DNA from: Bacteroides sp. ET71
GTDB lineage: Bacteria; Bacteroidota; Bacteroidia; Bacteroidales; Bacteroidaceae
Assembly (NCBI RefSeq): GCF_023336905.1
Contig: NZ_JAMBLS010000020.1
Location: 1 to 61,324 of the forward strand
Length of the DNA stretch: 61,324 nt
Direction of reading: 5' to 3'
The translations under genes and the position numbers were made by a program. The notes beneath the pieces are model-generated. The model had not been told where the DNA came from and ran no database searches. It saw only the letters and a list, made by a program, of their open reading frames with translations. Positions 33,999 to 36,871 of this stretch are shown here, piece after piece (within the stretch, counting starts at the first letter, position 1; every line of letters begins with the position of its first letter).

Positions 33999-35120
33999 TT
34001 ACAACACCTTCCTGAACCGTTCGAGGAACGTGTCAGCCTCCTCCATCGACAGGCACAGCGGCGGAAGCAGCCGGATGACGTTCGTCCCGCTGACGCCCGT
34101 AAACACCTTCTGCTCGTGCAAGAGGCGCGAACGCAGCTCCTTGATGGGCCGCTCGAACTCCAGGCCAATCATCAACCCCCGGCCCCGCACCTCGCGAATC
34201 TGCGGCAGCTTCCTCAGCTCCTCCAGCAGATGCGTGCCCACGCGGCCGGCGTTTTCTATCAATCCCTCGCCCTCGATGACATCCAGCACCGCCAGCGCCG
34301 CCGCGCACGCCAGGTGGTTGCCGCCGAACGTCGTGCCCAGTTGCCCGTAGACAGGCCGGAACATCGGGCTGATGAGCACGCCGCCCATCGGGAACCCGTT
34401 GCCAATGCCCTTGGCCACGGTGATGATGTCCGGCCGCACCCCCGTCCACTGGTGGGCAAAGAAGCGCCCCGTCCGCCCGTAGCCACTCTGAATCTCATCC
34501 AAGATGAGCACCGTCCCCGTCTGCGTACACTCCTCGCGCAAGGCCTGCATGAACGCCGTGTCGGGCACGCAGATGCCACCTACGCCCTGGATTCCCTCCA
34601 CGACGACGGCGCAGACATCGCCCTTGCGAAGCTCCGTCCGCATGGCCTCCACATCATTCAGCGGCAAGAACGTCGTATGCCCGTTGGCATTGATAGGCGC
34701 GATGATTTTCGGATTGTCCGTCACCTCCACCGCCAGCGACGTGCGCCCGTGGAACGCCTTTCCGAACGACACCACCCGGGTGCGCCCGTTATGGAACGAG
34801 GCCAACTTCAGCGCATTCTCGTTCGCTTCCGCCCCCGAGTTGATGAGGAACAACTGATAGTCGTCATATCCGCAGGCCCGACCCAGCCGCTCGGCCAGCT
34901 CCACCTGCAGTTTGTTGATGACCGAGTTGGAGTAGAAGCCCAACTGCGCCACCTGCTTACTAATCATCTCCACATAATGCGGATGGGCATGGCCGATGGA
35001 AATGACGGCATGCCCGCCGTAAAGGTCGAGGTACTCCGTGCCCCCTTCGTCCCATACGTGGCAACCTTTGCCCCGCACGATGCAGATGTCGAATAATGGA
35101 TATACGTCAAAGAGTTTCAT
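33999..35120 (-). CDS. argD: Acetylornithine (or succinylornithine) aminotransferase
   Basis: ArgD moves an amino group from glutamate to N-acylglutamate semialdehyde. The 373-residue class III aminotransferase has the PLP lysine in VAKGIGNGFPMGG (Lys237), LILDEIQSGYGRTGRFFAHQ around the pyridine-binding Asp, and NSGAEANENALKLA for phosphate binding. Some Bacteroides use N-succinyl rather than N-acetyl intermediates, so the acyl group is uncertain. It is separated from argC by the GIY-YIG unit and the 110-bp array, which may weaken co-transcription. Confidence 0.92.
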   Translation of the reverse strand: MKLFDVYPLFDICIVRGKGCHVWDEGGTEYLDLYGGHAVISIGHAHPHYVEMISKQVAQLGFYSNSVINKLQVELAERLGRACGYDDYQLFLINSGAEANENALKLASFHNGRTRVVSFGKAFHGRTSLAVEVTDNPKIIAPINANGHTTFLPLNDVEAMRTELRKGDVCAVVVEGIQGVGGICVPDTAFMQALREECTQTGTVLILDEIQSGYGRTGRFFAHQWTGVRPDIITVAKGIGNGFPMGGVLISPMFRPVYGQLGTTFGGNHLACAAALAVLDVIEGEGLIENAGRVGTHLLEELRKLPQIREVRGRGLMIGLEFERPIKELRSRLLHEQKVFTGVSGTNVIRLLPPLCLSMEEADTFLERFRKVL

Positions 35121-35151: not shown

Positions 35152-35481
35152 GTTCGTCCTGTCATCCCGAGCGCAGCCGAGGGATCTCACCATCAGTTTC
35201 AGTCGTGTTAGTAAGATGTCTCGGCTTCGCTCGACATGACAGGGCTGATTGTTTTCCTCCCGTTCGTCCTGTCATCCCGAGCGTAGTCGAGGGATCTCAC
35301 CATCAGTTTCAGTCGTGTTAGTAAGCTGTCTCGGCTTCGCTCGACATGACAGGGCTGATTGGTTTCCTCCCGTTCGTCCTGTCATCCCGAGCGTAGTCGA
35401 GGGATCTCACCATCAGTTTCAGTCGTGTTAGTAAGCTGTCTCGGCTTCGTTCGACATGACAGGGCTGATTGTTTTCCTCCC
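35152..35481. repeat. Three tandem 110-bp units built from a dispersed palindromic repeat
   Basis: Units begin at 35152, 35262 and 35372 with only a few base changes; a partial fourth from 35482 forms the left end of the GIY-YIG unit. Each unit opens with GTCATCCCGAGCGCAGCCGA and closes with a near-inverse CTCGGCTTCGCTCGACATGA, so each can fold into a long hairpin around a central 25-30 bp. Translated, it yields the well-known spurious peptide CHPERSRGIS. It lies in the predicted upstream region of argD. Confidence 0.92.
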
Positions 35482-35519
35482 GTTCGTCCTGTCATCCCGA
35501 GCGCAGTCGAGGGATCTCA
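35479..35519 (+). repeat. Left 41-bp inverted repeat of the GIY-YIG unit
   Basis: It begins CCCGTTCGTCC and ends GGGATCTCA. It is also the start of the fourth, truncated 110-bp unit, so array and gene unit share the same repeat end. Confidence 0.8.
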
Positions 35520-35533
35520 AGAAGGACTTTGTA

Positions 35534-35818
35534 TCAAAAGAAAAAAGCACCTAAGTCTTCCATCTTCGGGTTCAGACGCCTTATCAGAACATATTTCTTT
35601 GCCCTTGACCAGTTTTTCAACTGCTTCTCTCGCGCTATGGCATCTTCTATCCGTTGGTATTCTTCGTAATAAACCAAGCAATGGCAGTTGTATTTCTTGG
35701 TAAAGCCTTCCAGCATGCCATTCCGATGCTCTTGATAACGGCGGGGCAGGTTGTTGGTCACGCCGATGTAGAGAACATACCTGTAAGCATTGGTCATGAT
35801 GTAAACCCAGTATGACAT
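35534..35818 (-). CDS. GIY-YIG nuclease family protein
   Basis: The 94-residue protein is a single GIY-YIG domain: WVYIMTN (first strand), YIGVTNNLPRRYQEHRNG (second strand with the catalytic Tyr and Arg), YYEEYQRIEDAIAREKQLKNW (the metal-binding Glu in the helix) and a basic tail ending in three Phe. Stand-alone domains of this size resemble UPF0213/YhbQ-like proteins and are multicopy in Bacteroidetes. The gene lies exactly between two inverted 41-bp repeats, with its stop 15 bases from the left copy and its start 20 bases from the right copy. The target is unknown; cutting or nicking the flanking repeat is a testable idea. Confidence 0.88.
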   Translation of the reverse strand: MSYWVYIMTNAYRYVLYIGVTNNLPRRYQEHRNGMLEGFTKKYNCHCLVYYEEYQRIEDAIAREKQLKNWSRAKKYVLIRRLNPKMEDLGAFFF

Positions 35819-35837
35819 GCAGACGTCTTTACGTTAG

Positions 35838-35878
35838 TGAGATCCCTCGACTTCGCTCGGGATGACAGCGCAAACGGG
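35838..35878 (-). repeat. Right 41-bp inverted repeat of the GIY-YIG unit
   Basis: The inverse of 35479-35519 with four differences. It lies 24 bp from the 3' end of argC (35903). Confidence 0.8.
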
Positions 35879-35902
35879 AATTATTGTTTACTTCATTCTT
35901 CA

Positions 35903-36871
35903 TTAAAAAGCGCTTGGCTTCAGCCTCAGCCCCACCGTCTCCTCCAGGTTGAACATCAGGTTCATGTTGTGAACGGCCTGGCCGCTGGCACCCTTCAGCA
36001 GATTGTCGATGCAGGAGATGATGAGCAACTTGTCCCCGTGCTTCTCCAGGTGGAGGAGGCACTTGTTCGTGTTCACCACCTGCTTCAGGTCGATGTTCTT
36101 GTCAACGAGGAAGGTAAAGGAATCCTCCGCATAATACTCCTCGTAGATGCGCGTCAGCTCCTCGATGCTGCACTTGTTCTTCACCACGATGGTCGCGAAG
36201 ATGCCCCGGGGGAAGTCGCCGCGGTAGGGGATGAAGTCGATGCTGGAGTCGAAGCTGTTCTGCAACTGCTTCAGGCTCTGCCGTATCTCCGGCACGTGCT
36301 GGTGCTCGAACGCCTTGTAGACGCTCAGGTTATTGTTGCGCCAACTGAAGTGGCTCGTCGCGCCCGGCTTGACACCCGCTCCGGTGCTGCCCGTGATGGC
36401 GTTCACCATGATGTCGTCGTTCAGCATCAGGTGCTTGGCCAGGGGGAGCAGTCCCAGTTGGATGCAGGTGGCGAAGCAGCCAGGGTTGGCCACGTGCAGG
36501 GCGGTGCAGGTGGCGCGGCGGTTCAGTTCCGGCAGGCCGTAGACGAAGTCGTTGCCCTCGGCCTTCAGCCGGTAGTCCATGGAGAGGTCGATGACCCGCA
36601 GCCCTTCCGGCAGGTTGTGGCTTTCGATGAACTTGCGCGTGTCGCCGTGGGCGGTGCAGAAGAAGAGACAGTCTATCTCGTCCAGCGGCAGGCGGTCGGT
36701 GAAGCGCAGGTCCGTTTCGCCATAGAGACCCTCGTGCACGTCGGTCACGCGGTTGCCCGCATGGCTGGAGCTGTTGATGAAGACAATCTCTGCCTCCGGG
36801 TGGTTGATGAGCAGGCGGATAAGCTCGCCAGCCGTGTAGCCGGCCCCGCCGATGATTCCTATCTTTATCAT
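35903..36871 (-). CDS. argC: N-acetyl-gamma-glutamyl-phosphate reductase
   Basis: ArgC reduces N-acylglutamyl phosphate to the semialdehyde with NADPH. The 322-residue protein has GIIGGAGYTAGELIRLL at the nucleotide site, the catalytic Cys122 in VANPGCFATCIQLG, and SHFSWRNNNLSVYKAFEHQH with the active-site His. The C-terminal NLLKGASGQAVHNMNLM is the family ending. It follows the pspC gene by 54 bp in the arginine cluster. Confidence 0.94.
   Translation of the reverse strand: MIKIGIIGGAGYTAGELIRLLINHPEAEIVFINSSSHAGNRVTDVHEGLYGETDLRFTDRLPLDEIDCLFFCTAHGDTRKFIESHNLPEGLRVIDLSMDYRLKAEGNDFVYGLPELNRRATCTALHVANPGCFATCIQLGLLPLAKHLMLNDDIMVNAITGSTGAGVKPGATSHFSWRNNNLSVYKAFEHQHVPEIRQSLKQLQNSFDSSIDFIPYRGDFPRGIFATIVVKNKCSIEELTRIYEEYYAEDSFTFLVDKNIDLKQVVNTNKCLLHLEKHGDKLLIISCIDNLLKGASGQAVHNMNLMFNLEETVGLRLKPSAF

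Follow-up and report, generated by a model that had tools for sequence, protein, structure and literature searches.

A stand-alone GIY-YIG nuclease gene and its framing tagged hairpins in Bacteroides sp. ET71: candidate partners in a RAYT/REPIN-like arrangement

On the enzyme side, the closest described system is that of the Ssn proteins, site-specific single-strand nucleases that reportedly belong to the GIY-YIG superfamily. In the work of Chenal et al. (Nature Communications, 2025), a Neisseria GIY-YIG nuclease is reported to cut single strands at a repeat present in hundreds of copies, and many Ssn homologues reportedly exist, each with its own target sequence. The locus described here lies in the window, i.e. 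the whole stretch of 61,324 nucleotides of Bacteroides sp. ET71 DNA that was analysed. It resembles the Ssn system in combining a small stand-alone GIY-YIG enzyme, with intact active-site residues, and a short multi-copy repeat, and the gene's cognate repeat type lies next to it as well as at scattered sites across the chromosome contigs. It differs in its host, Neisseria there and, judging by its relatives, a Bacteroidales bacterium here, and the likeness of the window protein to Ssn is a putative one.

On the repeat side, the nearest relatives are the CGTC-tagged REPs. The survey of Di Nocera et al. 2013 (PMC3733652) describes them in five phyla including Bacteroidetes, apparently without a dedicated transposase, with an 8-9-bp stem starting with AT, a loop of 4-5 and mostly CCA tails, and with dimers nested in outer palindromes in H. 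neapolitanus. With the REPs so described (PMC3733652), our repeats share a C/TGTC tag that is unpaired beside the stem, a stem starting with AT, Bacteroidetes among the phyla, and dimers inside outer palindromes, which occur there in one species. The window type departs from them in its 5-bp outer stem, in the G-A positions that it has in tandem and in its tail, which is CT where theirs is CCA; the 8-9-bp stem beginning with AT and the loop of 4-5 are matched by type A and D relatives (e.g. ATCCTGAACTTGTTTCAGGAT), and the CCA tail is found in some relatives (e.g. L100, L106, L110). The arrangement as a whole resembles RAYTs and REPINs, in that an enzyme gene is flanked by inverted tagged hairpins while many enzyme-free doublets lie elsewhere, but the enzyme here is GIY-YIG, not Y1/HUH, and the tag is GTC, not GTAG; with a strict motif, a GTAG tag was found beside the 80 homologues analysed below 2 times near and 13 times far. 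A RAYT was also considered as the enzyme in this assembly (99.58% complete) and rejected, PF01797 (Y1) having 0 matches at E 0.001.

The gene (35534..35818, minus strand) was recognised as an open reading frame with a Pfam GIY-YIG domain (E 7e-15) and encodes a stand-alone protein of 94 aa. Residues Y6, Y17, G19, R27, H31, E64, K65, K68 and N83 are invariant across 65 aligned proteins, and the active-site residues typical of GIY-YIG enzymes are presumably complete. An AlphaFold2 model of the protein has a mean pLDDT of 96.2. NCBIfam has no family for it, and the nearest solved structures, related through their sequence profile, are the UPF0213 proteins 1zg2 (E 6e-9) and 1ywl (E 1e-6), both named hypothetical in their entries. 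A phage or defence identity was rejected, with no PADLOC match at E 0.1 and weak PHROG matches (E 0.002-0.009).

According to a domain search, one neighbour is an argC-type gene with Semialdhyde_dh domains (35903..36871, minus strand) and the neighbour on the opposite side is an argD-type gene with an Aminotran_3 domain (33999..35120, minus strand), so that the claim of the initial annotation that the unit splits argC from argD is borne out by these domains. Its description of the gene as placed between inverted repeats also proved correct: the 94-codon frame is enclosed by arms of 42 nt each, 90% complementary, with 14 bp between the stop codon and the stop-side arm (35478..35519, plus strand, tagged hairpin core 35491-35517) and 19 bp between the start and the start-side arm (35838..35879, minus strand, core 35840-35866). 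The view of these arms as two single copies holds for the start-side arm and fails for the argD-side arm, which is the end of a tandem array of 3.3 units of 110 bp (35152..35519). This array has three full units, each composed of one plus and one minus hairpin with tails inward; plus hairpins lie at 35161, 35271 and 35381 and a minus hairpin at 35214, and two more minus hairpins were placed by the 110-bp register at about 35324 and about 35434. Since the argD-side arm is the last array unit, about seven hairpins lie on one side of the gene and one on the opposite side.

The core repeat has 27 bp (TGTC-ATCCC-GAGCGNAGNCGA-GGGAT-CT). Five core matches were found in the window with up to 3 mismatches allowed, all of them mismatch-free, and 0 in 100 shuffles; the whole 3.6-Mb assembly contains 45 copies, a set defined by the same limit of 3 mismatches, which restricts the variation that can appear, and 0 matches to a reversed control pattern. 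Among these 45 copies, both sides of the stem changed at pairs 4-23 (T-A 41, C-G 4), 5-22 (C-G 40, T-A 4, C-A 1) and 7-20 (C-G 42, T-A 3), one side changed at pair 6-21 (C-G 43, T-G 2), and the outermost pair 3-24 is A-T in 36 copies and broken in 9. The inner positions read G-A in 43 copies, A-G in all 45 and then a G-C pair in 43; tandem G-A mismatches are able to stack well in DNA. GTC is kept in 43 of the 45, the search pattern itself beginning with GTC, and the copies mostly end in CT. When folded as DNA, the four window hairpins did not stand out in stability (z +0.3 to +0.6), and these copies fold with a 5-bp outer stem and, in three of the four, a 12-nt interior; a type-A sequence gave a good fold (z -3.6). 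The surroundings were read for 25 of the 40 copies outside the window, and 22 of these 25 loci have an inverted partner hairpin with tails inward, at a spacing of 25-27 nt in 19; 15 of 16 close pairs in the distant genome G084 show the same doublet geometry, a predominance of inverted dimers that is shared with the CGTC-tagged REPs (PMC3733652). Five loci (L298, L301, L302, L303 and L018) carry an extra G+C-rich palindrome, about CTCCCCCG...CGGGGGAG, between the hairpin stem arms.

A contig scan yielded at least 580 relatives of the protein, the best 80 of which were kept for flank analysis. Without any motif, an inverted-repeat test (score of at least 15) was positive at 43 of these 80 homologues versus 1 of 434 shifted intervals from these loci. 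When upstream and downstream flanks were paired across different loci, 53 of 800 combinations were still positive, a result to be expected from a repeat that the loci have partly in common. A strict perfect-stem motif gave a similar picture, occurring 96 times in 23.8 kb near the homologues versus 71 times in 371.6 kb far from them, on both sides of 26 of the 80 and on neither side of 39. Because this motif missed the hairpin type of the window, it was loosened to a [C/T]GTC-tagged hairpin with a 5-bp stem within 150 bp of the gene. With this rule, 59 homologues have a tagged hairpin upstream, 57 downstream and 48 on both sides, and 12 of the 80 have none within 150 bp. GTC was the most enriched of the 64 three-base tags (184 near, 289 far, 9.9-fold; median 36 near) in a comparison that did not require the stem to begin with A.

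Taken together, these counts strongly support the functional link between gene and repeat that the initial annotation had proposed. It had envisaged, as the opposite outcomes, homologues mostly lacking the flanking repeat and repeats equally common beside other genes; instead, 68 of the 80 homologues are flanked on at least one side, and tagged hairpins are about 30 times denser at the homologues than away from them at the same loci (165 in 23.8 kb versus 84 in 371.5 kb). The RAYT-like geometry, in which tags point outward and tails face the gene, predominates: the closest copy turns its tag away from the gene in 48 of the 59 cases upstream and in 43 of the 57 downstream. The expectation of finding this exact repeat beside the homologues did not hold, each homologue having its own version of the hairpin.

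A second set was drawn from 198 genomes of the order, in which the 20 best matches after the window (one of them, L250, a duplicate of a first-set locus) were compared with 20 weaker GIY-YIG matches of our own choosing, mostly from other subfamilies. On one side or both, a tagged hairpin was found no more than 150 bp away at 14 of the 20 best versus 3 of the 20 weaker matches (p 0.001), the hits at L250 and L280 resembling chance by eye, and repeats on both sides at 5 versus 1 (p 0.18). Of 15 additional GIY-YIG loci, including two that are the same places, one has a tagged hairpin. The hits at two loci of the weaker set (L284, L286) are, by eye, a different palindrome with the GTC tag inside the stem, e.g. 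GTCACCCT...AGGGTGAC.

Two main hairpin types can be distinguished, type A with a full stem and a short CTTG-like loop, and type B, that of the window, with the tandem G-A positions. On the enzyme tree, which is poorly resolved (of 62 inner branches, 35 are open and 6 starred), hairpin type changes 5 times versus 18.4 in shuffles, with 0 of 500 as low, under a typing rule that we wrote ourselves and that typed 51 of 65 rows; within Bacteroidota there are 2 changes versus 6.3, a number again reached by 0 of 500 shuffles. Across 55 loci, more similar proteins modestly tend to have more similar hairpins (Mantel rho 0.188, 2 of 1000 permutations). Genome-wide, with gene-adjacent copies included in the counts, pattern A was present in all 18 genomes with a type-A-flanked enzyme (1 to 199 copies) versus 6 of 32 others, and pattern B, which is too narrow, discriminated weakly (11 of 14 matching genomes versus 18 of 36 others).

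Gene and repeat were also followed among relatives. In 36 congeners, several of them incomplete assemblies, no homologue was found at E 0.001, and the core repeat has 0 copies in 32 of these gene-less genomes and 1-4 in the other 4, compared with 45 in the own genome. Throughout the order, pattern B (up to 2 mismatches) occurs in 10 of 198 genomes, all but two with at most 5 copies, and a strong homologue (E 1e-30 or better) is present in 6 of these 10 versus 16 of the 188 others (p 1.5e-4), or in 5 of 9 when the own genome is excluded (p 8e-4). Genome G060 has 42 to 47 copies of the window-type repeat without a close homologue. Its only GIY-YIG matches, of another kind, lie at L118 (G060:C20:12475-15062), where a GIY-YIG gene and a stretch resembling a tRNA 3' end together form a unit that occurs three times in tandem, at intervals of about 354 bp.

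Many copies in the own genome (L003-L032, L290-L305) belong to a dispersed element of about 145 bp, in which two inverted tagged hairpins lie inside TAAGAGCCTGTTTAAAA terminal inverted repeats. Around the own doublets, these ends were found on the left at 15, on the right at 11 and on both sides at 8 of 25 loci, and in genome G084 (L227-L240) the doublets are built likewise, with GAGGCTGTCTAAAAAGT ends on the left at 9, on the right at 8 and on both sides at 6 of 14 loci. There are no such terminal ends near the window gene, and the own copies L022, L023, L026 and L027 lack them as well. Sixteen further own stretches matching an end were fetched: six have a mate end, all six enclosing tagged hairpins (recognised by motif in five and by eye in L290), four contain one or more tags but no clear mate, and six have neither mate nor tag. 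The element of about 140 bp at the own site L012 has no counterpart in G015, where its two flanks align. At L004 and L029, G015 lacks the element too, with different sequence between the flanks that align. On its left, the Bacteroides propionicigenes GIY-YIG unit (L036, about 2868-2887, aaggtatagtctgtcattc) has a flank like that of the own repeat site L026, a likeness that suggests a second, longer type of element.

At the level of sequence comparison, the analysis establishes the co-occurrence of gene and hairpin, the geometry with tags out and tails in, the prediction of hairpin type by enzyme clade and the co-variation of inner stem pairs, and it suggests that the GIY-YIG enzyme and the hairpin repeat are partners. 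We consider it probable that the gene encodes a small Ssn-like site-specific single-strand nuclease whose substrate would be the tagged hairpin that frames it, in a RAYT/REPIN-like arrangement. The common tag, the paired stem changes, the outward tags and the match between clade and type point to a nuclease reading tag and hairpin in single strands, and its cutting is suggested by the conserved residues together with the reported Ssn work. The protein would bind the unpaired TGTC tag and the hairpin in single-stranded DNA, supplied perhaps by the lagging strand or by DNA under uptake, and would cut there. With less certainty, cuts at the repeats might trigger repair that copies hairpins, doublets and sometimes a gene-bearing doublet elsewhere, and the gene might behave as an autonomous member of a REPIN-like population, occupying the place of the spacer of about 26 nt in a doublet. 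Once at the argC-argD junction, the unit would have been kept there with its array. Spread of the repeat, or mobility, through the GIY-YIG enzyme may occur, with evidence on both sides. Against the reading as a whole count the 47 window-type copies of G060, whose only GIY-YIG genes are tRNA-linked and of another kind, the elements of about 145 bp with their own ends, the poorly resolved enzyme tree and the self-written typing rule, as well as the ordinary folding stability, the outermost pair broken in 9 of 45 copies, the weak pattern B, the both-side p of 0.18 and the 12 of 80 unflanked homologues.

A broader reading would make stand-alone GIY-YIG nucleases the dedicated enzymes that the CGTC-tagged REP superfamily as a whole has been missing, an independent second invention of the RAYT/REPIN kind in which each enzyme would read the GTC tag and its own hairpin in single strands and would drive the spread of doublets and occasionally of the gene; we regard this as quite possible, with our judgement leaning slightly against it. 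A literature search found, among the papers listed, none tying GIY-YIG enzymes to such repeats. The statement of the initial annotation that the pairing is undescribed was nonetheless too strong, given the reported Ssn family (2025). The repeats, too, resemble the CGTC-tagged REPs of 2013, some of them from Bacteroidetes (PMC3733652). The points to check for novelty are the connection with the CGTC superfamily, the agreement of enzyme clade and hairpin type, and doublets of REPIN-like form in which the gene replaces the spacer. The 2013 survey left the enzyme of the CGTC-tagged superfamily open (PMC3733652), and a candidate now stands beside such repeats in many phyla. The enzyme family tree predicts the hairpin type, so the question can be reduced to a cutting assay with paired enzymes and hairpins, which would also provide numerous pairs of enzyme and substrate for cutting single-stranded DNA at specific sequences.

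Since many copies sit in elements of about 145 bp with ends of their own and the window gene has none, another transposase may spread them. In the full form of this explanation, an unrelated transposase would move the hairpins inside a short terminal-inverted-repeat element (GAGCCTGTTTAAAA type) and the GIY-YIG protein would only use them as binding or cutting sites, for example in restricting incoming single-stranded DNA or in resolving hairpins. The doublets within terminal repeats (both ends at 8 of 25 own loci and 6 of 14 in G084), the tagged hairpins in 6 of 6 mate-end stretches (of 16 fetched) and the element of about 140 bp absent from G015 between aligned flanks all agree with it, and we rate it as possible, if rather doubtful. 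In the own assembly, ends that face inward at a distance of 1-3 kb occur once (contig C7, positions 112599 and 115162), and these two belong to separate short elements; hence no autonomous element was seen, though assemblies break at repeats. Such a transposase would moreover account neither for the own copies without ends nor for hairpins that flank the nuclease across phyla and track the enzyme tree, and in H. neapolitanus the outer palindromes enclose CGTC dimers, none being reported without REPs (PMC3733652). A far simpler explanation, that intergenic repeats collect by chance or hitch-hiking around any small dispensable gene, could appeal to their number (45 places) and to G060, where they are numerous without a close enzyme. 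It is very improbable, and chance flanking repeats were rejected on the shifted intervals (1 of 434), on the tag enrichment, the 63 other tags being less enriched than GTC, and on the contrast in the second set (3 of 20 weaker GIY-YIG matches), to which the 1 of 15 further GIY-YIG loci can be added.

The argC-argD junction bears on another alternative, a homing-like gene, in which the nuclease would cut gene-less doublets and repair would copy the gene in, with the hairpins as homology arms. Gene and hairpins occupy the same argC-argD junction in three other species (L033, L034 and L035, the last being the culturable Mediterranea sp. An20). An empty site, of the kind that the initial annotation proposed to look for in relatives, was found in G015 (ArgC 97% identical), where a junction of 150 bp has neither gene nor hairpins; 855 kb of this genome searched at up to 5 mismatches contained no tagged repeat. 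On the tree, G015 is placed among the gene-bearing species with a support of 0.276, and both loss in G015 and a gene never present there fit, the unit having either arrived at the junction in the species group or been lost from one lineage. Homing would agree with the absence of the gene from the junction in all 20 congeners with adjacent argC and argD (G015 and 19 others), with the patchy occurrence of homologues in many phyla, and with the tails-inward geometry usual for gene units and doublets alike. We nevertheless think it unlikely: no site was found as a plain doublet in one genome and gene-bearing in a relative, the palindrome at the argC-argD junction of G024 (L140, TTCTGTCATTCC...GGAATGACAGAA) has a tagged-hairpin-like look that may be chance, and arms of 27-42 bp are short for recombinational repair. 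The argC-argD junction of G005 (L143) measures 318 bp and contains a long G+C-rich inverted repeat.
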